Of a DNA stretch of 32,340 nt, positions 3,881 to 29,515 are shown piece by piece. Source of the DNA: Clostridia bacterium (GTDB taxonomy: Bacteria; Bacillota; Clostridia; Oscillospirales; CAG-272); contig JAFXHA010000068.1 in assembly GCA_017536635.1 (NCBI GenBank), positions 1-32,340 of the forward strand, in the 5' to 3' direction. The notes under the pieces were generated by a model that saw only the letters and a program-made list of their open reading frames with translations, had not been told where the DNA came from and did not search any database. Both the position numbers and the translations under genes were made by a program. The stretch's first letter is position 1. Every line of letters starts with the position of its first letter.

Positions 3881-4894
3881 TTAGGAATCGTATCCGTTAG
3901 GATTCTTGAGCTGCCAGTTGTAAGCGTCGCGACACATATCCTTGATGTTGTTTTCAGCCTTCCAGCCGAGAAGCTCGTAAGCCTTGGTAGGATTAGCGTA
4001 GCACTCGTCGATATCACCGGGGCGTCTTGCAACTATCTTGTAGTTTATCTTAATGCCCGTAGCTTCCTCATAAGCCTTTACGATATCAAGAACAGAGTAT
4101 CCGGTACCCGTTCCAACGTTGAAATGCTCAACGCCTGTGCGGGTCTCTGCACGCTCAATAGCCTTGAGGTGAGCTTTTGCGAGGTCAACAACGTGAATGT
4201 AATCACGAACGCCTGTTCCGTCGGGAGTATTGTAGTCGTTACCGAAAATTGAGAGACACTCTCTCTTGCCCGATGCAACCTGAGTTATGTAGGGAAGAAG
4301 GTTGTTCGGAATACCCTGGGGGTCCTCACCGATAAGTCCGCTCTTGTGAGCTCCGATGGGGTTGAAGTAACGGAGAATGGAGACGCTCCACTCGTTGTCA
4401 GCTGCGTGAAGATCCTTGAGGATTCTCTCTATCATAAGCTTGGTCTCACCGTAAGGGTTGGTTGTGGAAAGAGGGAAGTCCTCAGTTATCGGAACGCTCG
4501 CGGGCTTACCGTAAACGGTAGCAGAGGAGCTGAACACGATGCGCTTTGCGCCGTGCTTCTGCATGATATCGCAGAGGTTGAAGGTTCCGGTAAGGTTGTT
4601 GTGATAGTAAAGAAGGGGCTTTTCGCAGGATTCGCCAACTGCCTTAAGACCTGCGAAATGGATACAGCTGTCGATGTCGTTCTCGCAGAATACCTTATCG
4701 AGAGCATCGTAATCAAGAAGGTCTACCTCGTAGAATTTGAAGTCCTTGCCCGTAATTTCCTTTACTCTCTTGAGAGATTCGGGCTTGCTGTTTATAAAGT
4801 TGTCAACAACAACGAGCTCGCGGCCTGCGTTGAGAAGCTCAACCATAGTATGAGAGCCGATATAACCTGCTCCGCCTGTGATCAAAATTGCCAT
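3881..4894 (-). CDS. galE: UDP-glucose 4-epimerase
   Basis: NAD-dependent extended short-chain dehydrogenase that interconverts UDP-galactose and UDP-glucose. The Rossmann motif [10 protein letters not shown] lies at residues 6-15. The catalytic triad region is SSSATVYG (122-129, with Ser124) and NPYGETK (146-152, Tyr148 and Lys152). Length of 337 residues is standard. The start ATG has a TGAGGA ribosome binding site. It sits 37 nt downstream of the nucleotidyltransferase gene and just upstream of galM, so the three probably share one transcript. The mutarotase neighbour favours a galactose role, but the enzyme also supplies UDP-galactose for envelope polysaccharides. Confidence 0.97.
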
Positions 4895-4931
4895 TTTAAT
4901 TCCTCACTTATAAAATATTTTTGTGGTCAAA

Positions 4932-5828
4932 TTAAAGCTTTTCAGGGTAAACACCGTCGCTGATAAGCTTTGCGATGCTTGCCTTAACGGGTTCCTTATC
5001 TTCCTTGTAGGTAACGCCGTACCAGGAATCCTCGGTGCTGTAAACTGTAACAGTACATTTACCTGCATCCATAGCTTCCTTTACTGCGAAGGGGAGATAG
5101 TACTCGCGCTTCATAGGATTATCCGTGGGCTGTGCAAGGAAGGTCTTAAATCCTTCTTCGATGCTGTCAAAGATCGCGGGAGTAAAGCCCCAGCAGTTCA
5201 TAGATACAACGGTATCCATAGCGAGCTCGGTGGATGCTCCGTCCTCTTCGAAGAACGCCTTTTCGCCGTCCTTGTATATCTTTGTGCGCTCAACTACGTC
5301 GACAAGTCTGCGACATCTGTTGACCTTGCAAACACCTCTGGAAACGGTACCGTTTTCGGTGAGAGTATTGCGGAGTCTGTATCCAACCATACAGAAAGAA
5401 GGACGCTTTGCGTCAGCAGCTCCCGAGAGATGCTCAGCAAGGAGCTTATATGCGCCTCTGCCGTAGAAATCGTCAGCGTTGATAACTGCGAACGGATCGG
5501 TTACCTTGCTACGAGCAGCGAGGAGCGCGTGAGCAGTACCCCAGGGCTTTGTTCTGCCCTCGGGAAGAGAAAAGCCTTCGGGAAGGTCGTTAAGATCCTG
5601 GAAAGCGTATTCAACACGAACCTTGTCCTCGAAACGCTTACCGATGGTTTCGCGGAAGATCTCGAGATTTTCCTCGTTGATTACAAAAACTACCTTGTCG
5701 AATCCGCAAAGAATGGCATCATATACCGAAAAGTCGATAATAAAGCTGCCCGATTCAGTGATCGGATCGATCTGCTTGAGTCCGCCGTATCTTGATCCCA
5801 TACCGGCGGCAAGAATTACTAAAGTCAT
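4932..5828 (-). CDS. sugar-phosphate nucleotidyltransferase-like protein
   Basis: A 298-residue member of the NTP-transferase (GT-A fold) superfamily, expected to join an NTP to a sugar 1-phosphate. The N-terminal signature LAAGMGSRYGGLKQ (residues 6-19) is the nucleotide-binding loop; GTAH (97-100) and NADDFYG (117-123) fit the base- and metal-binding positions. It is the first gene of the operon with galE and galM, with a GGAGG site just before the ATG. The context suggests formation of UDP-glucose or UDP-galactose from the hexose 1-phosphate, which could bypass a classical GalT; this is inference. The sequence is not a close match to GalU or GlmU, and the exact sugar cannot be told. Confidence 0.85.
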   Translation of the reverse strand: MTLVILAAGMGSRYGGLKQIDPITESGSFIIDFSVYDAILCGFDKVVFVINEENLEIFRETIGKRFEDKVRVEYAFQDLNDLPEGFSLPEGRTKPWGTAHALLAARSKVTDPFAVINADDFYGRGAYKLLAEHLSGAADAKRPSFCMVGYRLRNTLTENGTVSRGVCKVNRCRRLVDVVERTKIYKDGEKAFFEEDGASTELAMDTVVSMNCWGFTPAIFDSIEEGFKTFLAQPTDNPMKREYYLPFAVKEAMDAGKCTVTVYSTEDSWYGVTYKEDKEPVKASIAKLISDGVYPEKL

Positions 5829-5866
5829 AGTAAACCTCCAAAATAAATATAATATTTTGAATCCTT

Positions 5867-5895
5867 ATTATAGCATTATTAAAAAAGAATTTCAA
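5867..5895 (-). promoter_or_regulatory. sigma-A promoter of the gal operon
   Basis: On the minus strand: -35 TTGAAA (5890-5895), a 17-nt spacer and -10 TATAAT (5867-5872) preceded by an extended TGC. It lies about 40 nt upstream of the nucleotidyltransferase start. Confidence 0.85.
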
Positions 5896-5994
5896 TATAA
5901 ACCGTATTTTTTTTACATAATGTTTACACATTTTGCATCGAAAAGCAGAAAATTTGTAGGCTTTATAAAAAATAAAAAAATTATTTATATGTTG

Positions 5995-6023
5995 TTGACA
6001 AAGATAGGAATGTATGATATAAT
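5995..6023 (+). promoter_or_regulatory. sigma-A promoter of the Crp/Fnr regulator and ABC operon
   Basis: Full-consensus TTGACA (5995-6000), 17-nt spacer, TATAAT (6018-6023) with an extended TGA in front. The predicted start at about 6030 falls inside the palindrome 6029-6044. Confidence 0.9.
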
Positions 6024-6028
6024 CAAAC

Positions 6029-6044
6029 TGTCTCAAATGAGACA
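6029..6044 (+). promoter_or_regulatory. candidate Crp/Fnr-family operator at the transcription start
   Basis: A perfect inverted repeat, TGTCTCAAATGAGACA, begins 6 nt after the -10 box. Read as TGTCT-N6-AGACA it has the half-site geometry of the Crp/Fnr family (TGTGA-N6-TCACA for Crp). Its place over the start site predicts autorepression by the regulator encoded 16 nt downstream. The match to family geometry is seen; binding is inferred. Confidence 0.7.
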
Positions 6045-6059
6045 ATTTTGAGGTGAAAG

Positions 6060-6725
6060 ATGAATATTTACGAAATATATCCGCAAATAACTCAAAACCC
6101 AATATTCAAGGACGCCGACCAAGATACTGTAAACCGATATCTTAACGGTGATACGATGACTCTGAGACGCTTTGAAGCAGACGAGCTCGTATATTCCCCC
6201 GATTCCGATAAAAAGAGCGTAGGTCTTATTCTTCGCGGCTCTGCCGCTGTAACTTCGCTTTCCGGTAAGGAAAAGGTAGTGCTCAAAACGCACAAGGCGG
6301 GAAATATGTTCGGCGTGGCAAATCTTTATGCGGACGAGCCACCCCCAAGCATAATCAGCGCCACCGAGCCCTGTGAGGTTATTTTTATAGACGGCAGCGC
6401 TTTTCGCTCGGTAATAGAAAACGATATGAGCGCTATGCGCGCATATCTTGCCTTTTTGAGCAAAAAAATAATATATCTCAATAAAGAGATATCTACCTTT
6501 ACGGCGGGAAGCGCCGAGAAAAAGCTCGCGTTTTTCCTTTGCGAAAATCAGCGAAACGGCATATTTGAGCCAAGCTTTTCAATGTCTCACCTTGCCGAGA
6601 TGCTCGGTGTCGGCAGAGCATCGCTATATCGCGCGCTGGATTCACTGGAGTCCGAGGGGCTTATACAGCGTGTCGAAAAAGCTATTTTAATTCCGGATAA
6701 ATATAAGCTGTCAAAAATAATATAA
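6060..6725 (+). CDS. Crp/Fnr family transcriptional regulator
   Basis: A 221-residue regulator with an N-terminal cyclic-nucleotide-binding-like beta-roll (about residues 15-115), a dimerisation helix (about 115-145) and a C-terminal winged helix (HTH about 174-200, with MSHLAEMLGVGRASLYRAL). The start has a GAGGTG site 5 nt upstream. It has only two cysteines (105 and 161), so it lacks the four-Cys iron-sulfur set of Fnr; the effector is unknown. It is first in an apparent operon with the importer genes (42-nt gap, no terminator), so it probably controls transporter synthesis. A palindrome of Crp/Fnr geometry lies over its own start site. Confidence 0.93.
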   Translation: MNIYEIYPQITQNPIFKDADQDTVNRYLNGDTMTLRRFEADELVYSPDSDKKSVGLILRGSAAVTSLSGKEKVVLKTHKAGNMFGVANLYADEPPPSIISATEPCEVIFIDGSAFRSVIENDMSAMRAYLAFLSKKIIYLNKEISTFTAGSAEKKLAFFLCENQRNGIFEPSFSMSHLAEMLGVGRASLYRALDSLESEGLIQRVEKAILIPDKYKLSKII

Positions 6726-6767
6726 CAGCCGAATTTATAAATCATTATCAATAAAGAGGTACAAAAA

Positions 6768-7760
6768 ATGAAAAAAACAATTACGAAGATACTCGCGGCA
6801 ATGCTTGCGGTACTGATGATGGCGAGCCTCGTTGCTTGCGCTAAAAAGCCTGATGAGGAGCTTGAGATAAACGTATATCTGCTTAACGGAACTACCGCGC
6901 TCGGTGCATCCAAGATGATCGCCGACGCAAAGGCTGATTCCGATTCTATGAATTATAATTTCCAGACCTTTGCGGCAGCAGACGCTATTACAGGCGCTAT
7001 CGTTTCGGGTGAGGCTGATATCGCAGCTCTGCCTACCAACGTTGCGGCAAAGCTTTATAAGAACAGCGAAGGAAAGCTTCAGCTTCTCGCACTCAACACG
7101 CTCGGCGTGCTTCATTTGCTTCAGAACGGCGGCGACGAGATAGACGAGCTTGCAGATCTCAAGGGAAGAACGATATACCTTCCCGGCGCAGGCTCTAATC
7201 CTGAGTTCATTACCGCGGCGCTTCTTGAGTCGGCAGGTCTGAAGGTGGGCGATGACGTTATTCTTGATACCACCTCGTTTAACTCTCCCGATGCCCTTGC
7301 AACTGCAATTGCAAGCGGCGTGGCAGACCTTGCAGTGCTTCCTGAGCCTAAGGTTACGGTTACTATGATGAACAATGCCAACATCACAAAGGCGATCGAT
7401 TTCAGCGCAGAGTGGGAAAAGCTTAACGGAGAGAACACACTCGTTCAGGGCTGTCTCGTGGTAAATACCGCATTTGCAGAGGAGCATCCCGCAGAGGTAA
7501 AGAAGTTCCTTGAGGATTATACTGCATCTGTTGAATATATCAAAGAGGGAAGCGACGACGCAATTCAGATGATAGTTGACGCAGGTATTCTGCCCAAGGC
7601 GCCCATCGCAAAGAAAGCGCTTCCGTCCTGCAACCTTTGTAGCATTACGGGTGCGGATATGGAGCCTCTTATGAAGGTGTTCTACGAGAAGCTTTACGCT
7701 TATAATCCTGCATCTGTCGGAGCAGTTCCGGATGCTGATTTCTATTACGTTGCAAAGTAA
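6768..7760 (+). CDS. ABC transporter substrate-binding lipoprotein, nitrate/sulfonate/taurine type
   Basis: Extracytoplasmic solute receptor anchored by a lipid. The signal peptide ends in lipobox LVAC with the modified Cys24. The mature part resembles the NMT1/SsuA/ThiY type II binding-protein fold: the segment GEADIAALPTNVA (about residues 83-95), LKGRTIYLPGAGSNPEF (about 129-145) and a second ADLAVLPEPKV segment are typical of its two lobes. Length of 330 residues is normal. It has its own ribosome binding site (AAAGAGGT) and is followed by a matching permease and ATPase. The substrate cannot be read from the sequence: sulfonates, nitrate-like anions, pyrimidine thiamin precursors and others use this family. 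Confidence 0.92.
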   Translation: MKKTITKILAAMLAVLMMASLVACAKKPDEELEINVYLLNGTTALGASKMIADAKADSDSMNYNFQTFAAADAITGAIVSGEADIAALPTNVAAKLYKNSEGKLQLLALNTLGVLHLLQNGGDEIDELADLKGRTIYLPGAGSNPEFITAALLESAGLKVGDDVILDTTSFNSPDALATAIASGVADLAVLPEPKVTVTMMNNANITKAIDFSAEWEKLNGENTLVQGCLVVNTAFAEEHPAEVKKFLEDYTASVEYIKEGSDDAIQMIVDAGILPKAPIAKKALPSCNLCSITGADMEPLMKVFYEKLYAYNPASVGAVPDADFYYVAK

Positions 7761-26533: not shown

Positions 26534-29119
26534 TTAGTTCTTGCTTTCCGAGAGCTTTCTCACAAAGTCGGTTATTTCGTTGCCGATCCGTGTCAATTCT
26601 TCTAAAAATTCCTTGGTGGTCATACGCGATATGCCCGAATGAACGGCAGAGAATTGCAAAAGCTTGTCATCGGTTACCATTCGTATGCTGTAATCGGGAC
26701 CAAGCTCGTGCATCATTTTTTCAATATACGCGTCAGCAGTCTGATTAGCCTTGGTATATACGACCTTGTATCCGTCATTTATGAACTCGGAGCCTTCACC
26801 GTCCTTGACAAGATAGGCATCGAAAACAAGGATAAGCTCGGTCTTGGTATAGGAAACGTAGTTGCTGAGCAGATCCATAAGATCTTCGCGAGCCTTTTCA
26901 AGACTGAACAGAGCGGTTTTCTGTAAGTCATCGTCAGCGTATATAAGATTGTATCCGTCAACGATTACCATGTTTTTCTGTGAGCGTATAGCTTTTGATC
27001 TGATCGGTTTTTCTTTTTTGCCTTGCGACATTAACTTTGGCTCGCTGTATTGCTTCCGTTTGATAGGTCCGAATAATCGGAGCATTATTGTCTCAAGCTC
27101 ATCGTCGCTTATATTGTACTTGCGCGCCAGCGTGGAAGCTTTGGGTATTATTTTCTCGCCTGTAGGCGTGTCTTTTATATCAATTTCAAGATGCTTGTAG
27201 CTGTCGACCTCGCTCCAATGTACAGTAAATCCCGCGCCGTGTGCGCAAAAAACAGAGTGAGGAGGATTTTTAAGATCGCTCTCGGGATCATATCCTGTTT
27301 GCGTAACGATATCATCTTGATTGTGGCAAGGCTCGTATCCGTCCGACGTGCAAAACAGTCTGCCTTCACCTCGTGTATAGGCTATTACCTCTTTTGTATA
27401 ATCAAAAAGAGTAGATACCGGCGCTCTTCCGCATATTGAGGTGCGCTCTGTATCTGAGCTTTCAAGCTCAAAATCCGCAAAGCGCGCTTGTAGGTCGGAC
27501 ATAGCTCTACCTACGTAAGACGTCGGTATTTCAAGCCTGAATTTATAGTATGGTTCAAGAAGCGTACATCCCGATTTCATAAGACCGTGTCTGACTGCAC
27601 GGTAGGTTGCCTCGCGGAAGTCTCCGCCCTCGGTGTGCTTAAGATGCGCCTTTCCGGCTACAAGAGTGATCTTGGTGTCTGTTAGCAGAGCACCCGTGAG
27701 CGTGCCGCGGTGGTCTTTTTCATAAAGATGAGTCAGCACAAGCCTCTGCCAATTAATATCAAGCGTGTTCTCTGGCAGACAGGTGTCAAATATTAATCCC
27801 GTGCCTTTGGGCTGAGGCTCTATAAGCAGCTGAACCTCGGCATAGTGACGAAGCGGCTCGAAGTGACCGACGCCGATAGCCTTTTGAGAGGCTTTTTCTT
27901 TATACAATATTTTGCCGGGGCCAAGAGTGCAATCAATAGAAAATCGGTCGCTGATAAGTCGTTTGATAAGCTCGGTCTGTACATCACCCATAAATCTCGC
28001 TTCTATTTGAGAAAGCTCCTCGTTCCACACGAGGTGTAAAGACGGTTCTTCCTCTTCAAGCTCTTTAAGCTTTGGAAAATATAAGCGTGTATCACAATCG
28101 GCAGGGAGTTGAATAGCATATGACAAAACAGGCTCAAGCAAAGGCTGTTGAGTATCCGGCTCAAGACCCAGGCCTTGTCCGACGTAGGAGGATGAGAGCC
28201 CGATAACCGCGCATATCTCTCCGGCGGTAACGGTGTCTGCCTGTTCGAATTTGTCCCCGGAGTAAAGCCTTATCTGACTGACTTTTTCGACCACGCGAAG
28301 ACCGTCTGCAGAAACGTAGCTTATCTCATCGCGTGCCGATAACGTTCCGCTCGTTATTTTCATATAGGTCAGACGCAAGGTGCCGACGCGTGATATTTTA
28401 TAGACTCGCGCGCCAAAGGTATTTTGGTCATAGATAGGATTTAAAGTATATTTGTCCAACGTATCAAGCAGATAATCTATACCCTGCAGTTTCAAAGCCG
28501 AGCCGAAAAGGCAAGGGAAGAGCTTGCGATTGCTTATCAGATAAGATATGTCTATATCGTCAATGCCTTCACCGGATATGAATCTTTCCATAAAATCTTC
28601 GTGAACGAACGCTAATTTTTCTTCAAGCTCTTTGCGTTGCTGCGATTCTAAAAATCCAACGCATAACGGAGACAGAACACCGGAAATTTCTTTTTCGATA
28701 TCTTCTTTCAGCTTGATTGCAAGATCGCATTTGTTTACAAAGATAAAAGTAGGAACGCCGTAATGGTCGAGCAATTGCCAAAGTGTGCGGGTGTGGTTCT
28801 GTATGCCTTCGGATGCGCTGATCACAAGTATCGCATAGTCAAGAAGAGCAAGTGTGCGCTCGGCCTCGGCAGAAAAATCCACATGCCCGGGAGTATCAAG
28901 GAGAATAAAATCGCAATTGACACTTGAAAATCTTGCCTGCTTTGAAAAAATGGTGATCCCGCGTTCACGCTCAATAACGTTGGAGTCAAGATATGTGTTT
29001 TGGTGATCTACTCGTCCTAAAGTTCGAATTCTTCCGGATATATAGAGTAACGCCTCGCTAAGCGTGGTTTTTCCGGCGTCAACGTGGGCAAGTATACCTA
29101 TGGTAATTTTCTTTTTCAC
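26534..29119 (-). CDS. TetM-like ribosomal GTPase fused to a YacP/Rae1-type NYN ribonuclease domain
   Basis: An 861-residue protein. The first ~650 residues form a TetM/EF-G-like translational GTPase: G1 AHVDAGKTT (11-19), G2 RERGITI (51-57), G3 DTPGHVDF (75-82), G4 NKCD (129-132), then barrel and domain III-V segments, including VGHFEPLRHYAEVQLLIEP. After a basic linker (KKEKPIRSKAIRSQKN), residues 717-849 are a NYN_YacP domain: IVDGYNLIYA (Asp721), LVFDAY (Asp767), TKANQTADAYIEK (Asp796) and VTDDK (Asp817-818), the PIN-like acidic set. GTG at 29119 is preferred because GGGGGAG sits 5 nt upstream; a TTG at 29137 is less likely. TetM proteins are about 640 residues, so the nuclease is an addition. 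Bacillus Rae1 (YacP) cuts mRNA in the ribosomal A site. A joint ribosome-rescue or mRNA-cleavage role is inferred. Tetracycline resistance is not implied. Confidence 0.93.
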   Translation of the reverse strand: MKKKITIGILAHVDAGKTTLSEALLYISGRIRTLGRVDHQNTYLDSNVIERERGITIFSKQARFSSVNCDFILLDTPGHVDFSAEAERTLALLDYAILVISASEGIQNHTRTLWQLLDHYGVPTFIFVNKCDLAIKLKEDIEKEISGVLSPLCVGFLESQQRKELEEKLAFVHEDFMERFISGEGIDDIDISYLISNRKLFPCLFGSALKLQGIDYLLDTLDKYTLNPIYDQNTFGARVYKISRVGTLRLTYMKITSGTLSARDEISYVSADGLRVVEKVSQIRLYSGDKFEQADTVTAGEICAVIGLSSSYVGQGLGLEPDTQQPLLEPVLSYAIQLPADCDTRLYFPKLKELEEEEPSLHLVWNEELSQIEARFMGDVQTELIKRLISDRFSIDCTLGPGKILYKEKASQKAIGVGHFEPLRHYAEVQLLIEPQPKGTGLIFDTCLPENTLDINWQRLVLTHLYEKDHRGTLTGALLTDTKITLVAGKAHLKHTEGGDFREATYRAVRHGLMKSGCTLLEPYYKFRLEIPTSYVGRAMSDLQARFADFELESSDTERTSICGRAPVSTLFDYTKEVIAYTRGEGRLFCTSDGYEPCHNQDDIVTQTGYDPESDLKNPPHSVFCAHGAGFTVHWSEVDSYKHLEIDIKDTPTGEKIIPKASTLARKYNISDDELETIMLRLFGPIKRKQYSEPKLMSQGKKEKPIRSKAIRSQKNMVIVDGYNLIYADDDLQKTALFSLEKAREDLMDLLSNYVSYTKTELILVFDAYLVKDGEGSEFINDGYKVVYTKANQTADAYIEKMMHELGPDYSIRMVTDDKLLQFSAVHSGISRMTTKEFLEELTRIGNEITDFVRKLSESKN

Positions 29120-29156
29120 GATCGCTCCCCCTTTCAATGAATTTTTTATTGATTAT

Positions 29157-29185
29157 ATTATATCATATCTTAGCTGCTTTTTCAA
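29157..29185 (-). promoter_or_regulatory. sigma-A promoter of the GTPase-NYN gene
   Basis: On the minus strand: TTGAAA (29180-29185), 17-nt spacer and TATAAT (29157-29162) with extended TGA, about 38 nt upstream of the GTG start. Confidence 0.85.
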
Positions 29186-29231: not shown

Positions 29232-29260
29232 TTGACAAACCATCACAAAAATGCTATAAT
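29232..29260 (+). promoter_or_regulatory. sigma-A promoter ahead of a decayed winged-helix gene
   Basis: TTGACA (29232-29237), 17-nt spacer, TATAAT (29255-29260) with extended TGC. It now reads into a frameshifted gene, then toward the hairpin at 29770. Confidence 0.88.
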
Positions 29261-29309
29261 GGAACAACAATTCCGGAAACAAAAAATAGAGGTGCTTTTT
29301 ATAAAAGTT

Positions 29310-29515
29310 ATGGACGAGAAAAAACTGCAAGAAATTACGGAGTTCATCAAGCAGTATGCAAGAGAGAACAATGGCGATGCTCCCGACTTGCAGATATCAT
29401 GGATTACATAAGTATGGTGAAAACAACAGGATACCGTTACATGCTTGAACTTAAAAAGCACGGCATCGTCTCTTACAACGGAAAAAACTTTGTTCACGTT
29501 GCAAAACTACCGTAG
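29310..29515 (+). pseudogene. frameshifted small LexA-like winged-helix protein
   Basis: From ATG 29310 the frame reads MDEKKLQEITEFIKQYAREN and on to DAP before running into a stop at about 29409. A different frame continues the same protein: RLADIMDYISMVKTTGYRYM, then LELKKHGIVSYNGKNFVHVAKLP, to the stop at 29513. Joined, the two halves give a ~67-residue winged helix like the LexA N-terminal domain (recognition helix around KTTGYRYMLELKK). One base seems lost near 29377-29386. A sequencing or assembly error is possible, but the decayed sequence downstream favours a true pseudogene. Confidence 0.72.

Follow-up and report, generated by a model that had tools for sequence, protein, structure and literature searches.

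A translational GTPase fused to a Rae1-type nuclease domain probably took over the role of stand-alone Rae1 in many Clostridia

What is the function of a protein that joins an EF-G-like translational GTPase to a Rae1/YacP-type nuclease domain in one polypeptide? A gene of this kind lies on the minus strand of a 32,340-bp stretch of DNA (the window; contig JAFXHA010000068.1 of assembly GCA_017536635.1) from a Clostridia bacterium of the GTDB lineage Oscillospirales, CAG-272. A sequence-only reading had described a TetM-like GTPase and a Rae1/YacP-type NYN nuclease in one frame, with the GTPase motifs and the acidic positions of the nuclease intact. Both statements were borne out, as the gene is a single intact open reading frame (ORF) whose two halves are matched in Pfam and in the PDB and whose nuclease residues are kept throughout the fusions. 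The explanation we favor, with somewhat more than even confidence, is that the product is a GTPase-delivered, ribosome-directed mRNA endonuclease that replaced Rae1. It builds on what can be read from the genomes themselves: the fusion architecture, the intact catalytic motifs, a GTPase subfamily of its own, near exclusion with yacP, and empty or decayed yacP slots.

The ORF is unbroken from 26534 to 29137 and encodes 867 amino acids counted from TTG 29137. GTG 29119 is the likelier start; GAAAGGGGG lies just upstream of it as a good ribosome-binding site, together with a TTGAAA-17-TATAAT promoter, and TTG 29137 overlaps that ribosome-binding site. Counted from the TTG, Pfam placed GTP_EFTU at residues 9-231 (E 2e-49), EFG_IV at 410-522 (E 2e-10), EFG_C at 526-607 (E 7e-19) and NYN_YacP at 724-864 (120 bits against a cut-off of 24.6, E 1e-34), while the matches to EF-G_D2 and EFG_III fell under the curated Pfam cut-offs. 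In a PDB search the GTPase part was closest to TetM (3j25, 3j9y), next to TetO and then to EF-G. The only convincing matches of the NYN part were two YacP entries (5mq8 and 5mq9, E 9e-19), which we take to be B. subtilis Rae1. The G-domain residues A11-D14, G16-T19, G54-T56, D75-H79, K130 and D132 were invariant in 59 aligned fusions. Domain V is followed by an extension that also ends the four unfused proteins compared. Its two near-invariant cysteines, kept in 60 and 61 of 61 fusions, might form a metal or disulfide site; because the histidines are kept in only 44 and 43 of the 61, a zinc-site reading of the extension was not adopted. The linker between the two halves is poorly conserved in sequence and varies from 65 to 159 residues (median 82, 148 fusion rows), a length sufficient for movement of either domain.

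Proteins with both domains were found widely. Sixty additional loci from other genomes share the architecture, as do 74 of the best 80 named loci, which have both halves in one frame of more than 840 amino acids; the fusion is therefore neither a chance joining nor an assembly error. The 80 are the best, by likeness to the fused query, of at least 596 confirmed stretches in named genomes, and by title they come mostly from Lachnospiraceae, Oscillospiraceae and other Clostridia. Named loci outside the 74 hold a partial gene (L176, L181, L194, L201) or broken frames (L239, L247). Most fusion homologues are 43-51% identical to the window protein; the closest among these named loci, from Clostridia bacterium RGIG5350, matches at 87% over 248 amino acids.

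The nuclease half has kept D721, N724, D767, D796 and D818 (counted from the GTG), positions that we take to be the catalytic residues of Rae1/YacP. None of the five varied among the distinct fusion NYN domains (151 of 151), nor did their equivalents among the distinct stand-alone NYN proteins (28 of 28), so that no loss of the acidic residues was seen across these homologues. The counts derive from 156 fusion and 36 stand-alone rows; not counted were L172, L175 and L247 among the stand-alone rows, fusions only partly contained in short loci, and any protein of 220-800 amino acids. Both halves look catalytically intact, and they are conserved together. B. subtilis Rae1/YacP has the same NYN_YacP domain with identical acidic residues but is a stand-alone protein of about 170 amino acids encoded in an rlmB-sigH block, whereas the window's domain is fused to a GTPase and its gene lies outside that block.

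Genomes that carry the fusion rarely carry another YacP. The sequence-only reading had suggested a look for a stand-alone YacP and a true TetM elsewhere in the window's genome; in that genome, which is 88% complete, there was neither a second YacP nor a protein above the tetracycline-protection cut-off given below. In a phylum sample of 249 genomes, another NYN_YacP was present in 0 of 16 fusion genomes and in 119 of 233 genomes without the fusion (Fisher p 2e-5, uncorrected for relatedness of the genomes; 7 of the 119 are weak, at 61-73 bits). Among the 147 genomes of a class sample, the long form was present in 54, and all but one of these (53) had exactly one NYN_YacP match, the place of some single matches within the fusion being deduced from the long frame. 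A two-gene counterpart was seen where the GTPase is unfused: a separate YacP of 172-176 amino acids accompanied it in 4 of 8 class genomes (G387, G432, G454, G474), and a separate YacP was present in 2 of 2 phylum-sample genomes (G825, G848).

The place that yacP would normally occupy gave a consistent picture. Among ten stand-alone controls, rlmB, yacP and sigH were adjacent in eight, with yacP between rlmB and sigH; in L166 the gene lies elsewhere, in L167 rlmB is further off, and L170, from G612, is also a fusion genome. We examined rlmB in 21 fusion genomes; it lies beside sigH in 14, and in these the yacP slot was empty in 12, held a decayed fragment in one (G349) and an intact yacP in one (G612). 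The gaps at empty slots measured 48-595 bp by tblastn edges, with one read directly; a single 25-bit match of 19 residues at L304 was set aside. The decayed yacP (L309, about 5727-6090) lies between rlmB and sigH in two pieces, scores 52 bits and shares its genome with a fusion. In the seven other fusion genomes, the window's included, no sigH could be located next to rlmB, and the 8-11 kb read showed no yacP. Slots that are empty or hold a decayed gene are the trace expected if the fusion had replaced yacP, and on this genomic evidence the fusion protein probably took over the role of stand-alone Rae1 in these Clostridia. The intact halves, the near exclusion with Rae1 and the 13 of 14 slots that are empty or decayed fit one protein doing Rae1's job on ribosomes; to this extent the self-delivered ribosome nuclease of the sequence-only reading is supported, whereas its label 'TetM-like' is not.

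That label finds no support in the GTPase half. On NF012153, the NCBIfam tetracycline-protection family, whose cut-off is 775 bits, the window protein reached 389. Among 59 class genomes, 6 had true resistance proteins, at 819-883 bits, and fusions reached at most 447; TetB(P) scored 939. Three genomes (G157, G350, G367) each carry a fusion plus a true resistance protein. At the tip of domain IV, TetM has YYSPVSTPADFR, in which Pro-509 touches C1054 in the drug site according to the available excerpt of PMC8161019. In the fusion protein a lysine aligns with Pro-509, and this column was lysine in 35 of 35 fusions and in 59 of 59 fusions of a second alignment, the window included. Seventeen unfused members had K (15), V (1) or E (1) there, and five resistance-type rows had P (4) or V (1). 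The tip GHFEPLRHYAEV and the motif HxKHTxGGDFR are nearly invariant and, with few changes, common to fused and unfused members. The tip is thus constant yet unlike that of TetM: the part that in TetM and EF-G reaches the decoding center is held under strong constraint, but for another ligand. In a pattern scan, 7 of the 159 fusions and 1 of the 21 other proteins went unmatched, and a strict G-motif pattern failed to match 28 of 159 and 4 of 21; the 21 include contig-cut or broken members.

Trees were inferred by a quick method with SH-aLRT support and no bootstrap. In the main tree of 68 GTPase parts over their full spans, six resistance-type proteins formed one group (support 94; one of them, L294, scores 561 bits and is thus under the cut-off) and 60 members of the present subfamily formed another (99). 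Within the latter, 47 fusions and an unfused plasmid protein of L. salivarius made up one clade (98.9), with 12 unfused members as its sister group (91). A second tree of 59 rows, which included four more unfused members from the window's family, gave the same picture: three of the four joined the unfused clade and that of G015 was nested beside a fusion (99). A GTPase clade of fusions only was not rejected (AU p 0.68, 68-row tree), nor was a clade of fused NYN domains (p 0.38, 47 fusion against 10 stand-alone rows). The simplest account of these trees is one fusion event followed by at least one loss of the NYN domain (G015/L327) and perhaps a second (L. salivarius L319, whose placement is unsure). 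In the NYN tree, a stand-alone NYN gene with no rlmB or sigH nearby (L166 of G539, 4790-5308) fell beside the fusion NYN domains (support 84) and was possibly detached from a fusion.

By its sequence the GTPase half belongs to a separate subfamily. A true TetM was rejected: the family score, the tip loop and the place in the tree argue against it, as does the presence of true resistance genes in some of the same genomes. The label TetM-like has no functional support, since the loop that contacts the drug has been replaced and the protein does not group with the resistance proteins. TetM, TetO and TetB(P) are likewise EF-G-like translational GTPases with intact G motifs and are represented among the nearest solved structures, but they share only about 29-32% identity with the window protein and differ in family score, domain-IV tip and tree group. 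Public annotation nevertheless labels several relatives as TetM/TetW/TetO/TetS family. The unfused members, from Ligilactobacillus salivarius (pMP118), Paenibacillus cellulosilyticus and several Clostridia, have the loops GHFE-PLRHYAEV and HTxGGDFR with small changes; they differ in lacking the NYN domain, with frames of 635-729 amino acids, and some are annotated by NCBI as TetM/TetW/TetO/TetS or as translation factor GTPase family protein. The L. salivarius UCC118 gene (L319, 3983-5917), annotated as TetM/TetW/TetO/TetS resistance and grouping with the fusion clade, is two genes away from rpsN (S14) and a putative metal homeostasis gene.

In the window's family NYN_YacP was present in 47 of 146 genomes, and a search with the GTPase part detected 49 of 142, namely 45 of the NYN genomes and 4 with unfused frames of 635-656 amino acids (G003, G015, G071, G118). 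No NYN_YacP separate from this GTPase was found among the 47 family rows, six of which lie in frames shorter than 750 amino acids. At one locus (L172 of G105, 4584-7289), the GTPase and then the NYN domain are adjacent frames in one phase with a stop between them, either a natural split or an assembly error. Across the order, 71 of 197 genomes had a match and 67 of 72 rows lay in frames of 833-1334 amino acids; of the remaining five, four shorter ones reach a contig end and one is a fragment of 43 amino acids. The class had matches in 220 of 342 genomes, and those listed fall mostly into two frame sizes, about 170-220 and about 850-1000 amino acids. Lateral transfer or repeated loss is suggested by three observations: the window's family does not stay together in the trees but falls in several places, the fusion is patchily present, and its loci share no neighbors.

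How might such a protein work? We infer ribosome binding, an mRNA substrate, cleavage in the A site and coupling to GTP hydrolysis from the two domains, and hold the order of the steps less firmly than the general reading. With its EF-G-like shape, the GTPase body would dock at the factor site of stalled or slow ribosomes whose A site is free, and its domain-IV tip, which resembles neither that of TetM nor that of EF-G, would guide it there. The NYN domain of Rae1 type, tethered to this body, would then cut the mRNA in or beside the A site, with GTP hydrolysis freeing the fusion protein from the ribosome.

Several observations weigh against a ribosome-directed nuclease in place of Rae1. Domain IV and a Rae1 domain docked in the A site would compete for one place, so that the NYN domain would have to wait for a shift of domain IV or work from the mRNA entry side. 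In stand-alone Rae1 proteins the C-terminal segment contains an arginine at 165-168 in Rae1 counting (27 of 28 distinct); among distinct fusions, only 19 of 151 have kept an arginine near B. subtilis R166. The fusions of the window's family lack the whole segment (21 of 21), and so none of them has the arginine (0 of 21), the window included. R166P was isolated as an apparent loss-of-function change in B. subtilis Rae1, as far as the available part of PMC6613710 goes. Either the GTPase would now do the job of the lost segment, such as ribosome contact, or the fused domain is no equivalent of Rae1. The subfamily also occurs without any NYN match, in the other 4 of the 8 unfused-GTPase class genomes and in G003, G015 and G071 of the window's family, which points to some nuclease-free role of the GTPase. 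Exclusion is incomplete: four class genomes (G446, G504, G538, G612) show two NYN matches, and G612 retains both the fusion and an intact yacP at the old place. Finally, only 1 of 4 sampled genomes of the window's genus has the fusion, the other three lacking both NYN_YacP and the GTPase, and its presence in the family is patchy (45 of 142 genomes); a gene so dispensable is no universal housekeeping factor. Among the genomes with two matches, G446, G504 and G538 belong to one genus; the fusion was read in G446 and G504, where the old yacP slot is empty, and was seen in G538 as a long frame.

The architecture itself is already in print as a prediction. In the available part of Atkinson 2015 (PMC4342817), Tet proteins of ten Clostridiales species are said to have acquired a YacP-like NYN RNase domain, and an RNase-linked resistance mechanism is proposed for them. 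As described there, those proteins have in common with the present one an EF2-family GTPase, the extra NYN domain and a Clostridial host. They are treated there as resistance proteins, whereas the subfamily described here lies outside TetM/TetB(P) and lacks the Pro-509 loop. The fusion also occurs in far more genomes than the ten species, rarely with a stand-alone yacP. Our searches of the open full-text library listed no experimental study of such a fusion, in agreement with the sequence-only remark on missing experiments, although further prior mention is possible; the architecture itself is not new. Beyond the printed prediction, our comparisons add that the GTPase forms a subfamily of its own, that its tip is changed, that the family of the window has lost the tail of Rae1 and, most importantly, that yacP appears to have been replaced. 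SmrB also cuts mRNA on the ribosome; it and the RelE-type interferases have unrelated folds and are not known to carry a GTPase. The proposed end result, an mRNA cut on the ribosome, would be the same as for RelE-type A-site mRNA interferases, and the list of endonucleases cutting there is termed incomplete in the available excerpt of PMC12320835. For Rae1 itself, the excerpts available to us describe or propose endonuclease action in the A site of the ribosome (PMC6613710, PMC10100781, PMC12320835).

We judge it improbable that the fusion is a resistance protein against tetracycline or another ribosome-directed drug, with the nuclease adding a new resistance mechanism (Atkinson 2015, PMC4342817). 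TetM and TetO are its nearest solved structures, relatives carry Tet names in public annotation, and the available part of that paper files such fusions under Tet; yet the scores, 389 bits against 819-939 for true resistance proteins, the lysine at the place of Pro-509 in all aligned fusions, the separate tree group and the three genomes with both kinds of protein all speak otherwise. So do plasmids, since only 2 of 72,556 records match at least 80% of a linker-plus-NYN query, compared with 987 records of another plasmid search that are, from organism counts and with 40 rows inspected, probably mostly true resistance genes. The 5' leader points the same way: tet(M) is regulated by leader-peptide attenuation, and the leader of the fusion gene is too short for a leader peptide of that type. 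More weight, within the range of the unlikely, belongs to a GTPase that acts as a ribosome rescue, splitting or back-translocation factor, with the NYN domain trimming mRNA after remodeling; this would be co-delivery and not direct cutting in the A site. The unfused GTPases that persist in genomes without an NYN match would suit such a factor, as would a linker that permits a separate site of action and the expected clash of domain IV with Rae1, but the near exclusion with stand-alone Rae1 and the tree-compatible single origin suggest that the NYN domain does the job of Rae1.

The genes rlmB and mrnC, which we saw beside yacP, presumably act on rRNA, and this would agree with an NYN domain that processes rRNA or tRNA, in maturation or after damage, while the GTPase docks it on the 50S or 30S subunit. 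A function of NYN/YacP proteins in rRNA and tRNA maturation was indeed proposed earlier, as cited in the available part of Atkinson 2015 (PMC4342817). We see only a slim chance for it here, because later B. subtilis work, in the excerpts available, reports translation-dependent mRNA cleavage by Rae1, and because the fusion gene lies near the rlmB block in just 1 of 139 loci (L150 of G522, a few kb away) and is missing from many relatives. That two unrelated activities were joined by accident, or that the NYN domain is now non-catalytic, is very improbable. Loss of the domain at least once inside the fusion clade (G015/L327), possibly also in L. salivarius (L319), and the poorly conserved linker would be expected under that explanation; on the other side, catalytic residues kept in every distinct fusion at mostly 43-51% identity to the window protein, together with the replacement of yacP, argue for retained function.

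The ribosome-directed endonuclease thus remains our preferred explanation. In its widest form it would be a GTPase with a built-in nuclease, fused once in Clostridia and widely passed on, that displaced Rae1 in a large share of gut Clostridia and cleaves mRNA on stalled ribosomes under GTP control, with targeting, cutting and release in one polypeptide, often mislabeled as tetracycline resistance; for this full account our confidence falls a little short of even. If true, a single GTPase would both target ribosomes and cut mRNA, which would make it a type of quality-control factor for ribosomes. Some gut commensals are annotated with a TetM-family resistance gene that is probably something else, a mislabel that would inflate resistome counts and that this reading would correct. 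The displaced yacP slot makes the takeover from Rae1 directly testable.

The coordinates of the gene and its parts are collected in Table 1.

Table 1. Fusion gene, its promoter and the parts of its product in the window
Feature	Position	Strand	Basis and remarks
Promoter TTGAAA-17-TATAAT for the fusion gene (likely)	29157..29185	-	Sequence; 11/12 match, short 5' leader
Fusion protein gene	26534..29119	-	ORF, sequence, Pfam, relatives; 861 amino acids from GTG 29119
G domain (GTP_EFTU)	28445..29113	-	Pfam; G1 AHVDAGKTT, RGIT, DTPGH and NKxD all intact
Domain II (EF-G_D2, under curated cut-off)	28190..28375	-	Pfam
Domain III (EFG_III, under curated cut-off)	27920..28135	-	Pfam
Domain IV, with the subfamily's characteristic tip loops GHFEPLRHYAEV and AHLKHTEGGDFR	27572..27910	-	Pfam, loop comparison, invariant columns
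Domain V (EFG_C)	27317..27562	-	Pfam
Post-domain-V extension GYxPCHN...SVFCxHGAGF.V.W..V..H	27191..27340	-	Fusion alignments and unfused relatives
Linker, 77 residues, net charge +7	26969..27190	-	Fusion rows
NYN_YacP (Rae1-type) nuclease domain, acidic residues kept, C-terminal Rae1 tail missing	26546..26968	-	Pfam, PDB match, conservation

The surroundings of the gene offered no partner. In 139 fusion loci no neighbor family of at least 70 amino acids recurred in more than 19, the largest being an ABC-ATPase-like cluster, and an operon partner or island was ruled out on this count. No Rfam element reached its gathering score in the 5' leader or elsewhere in the window, the two matches near the fusion gene being at chance level, and an RNA element or attenuator was set aside. 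A perfect TTGACA-17-TATAAT promoter, divergent from the fusion gene, and the small HTH-like ORF that it precedes lie at 29232-29512 (plus strand); the reading frame of the ORF is interrupted. This ORF was not accepted as an upstream regulator, as it is small and interrupted and its pieces were not found in the relatives compared. PADLOC gave no match to a known anti-phage defense system. A phage gene was also rejected, since two phage-labeled scaffolds with fusions show host-type surroundings (FeoB, tRNA synthetase, sugar kinase, DAP epimerase). Two loci were found in IMG/VR (L333 and L334); the one inspected, L333, holds an unfused member at the contig start with an endolysin-like ORF on the same contig, and is probably host sequence at the edge of a prophage.

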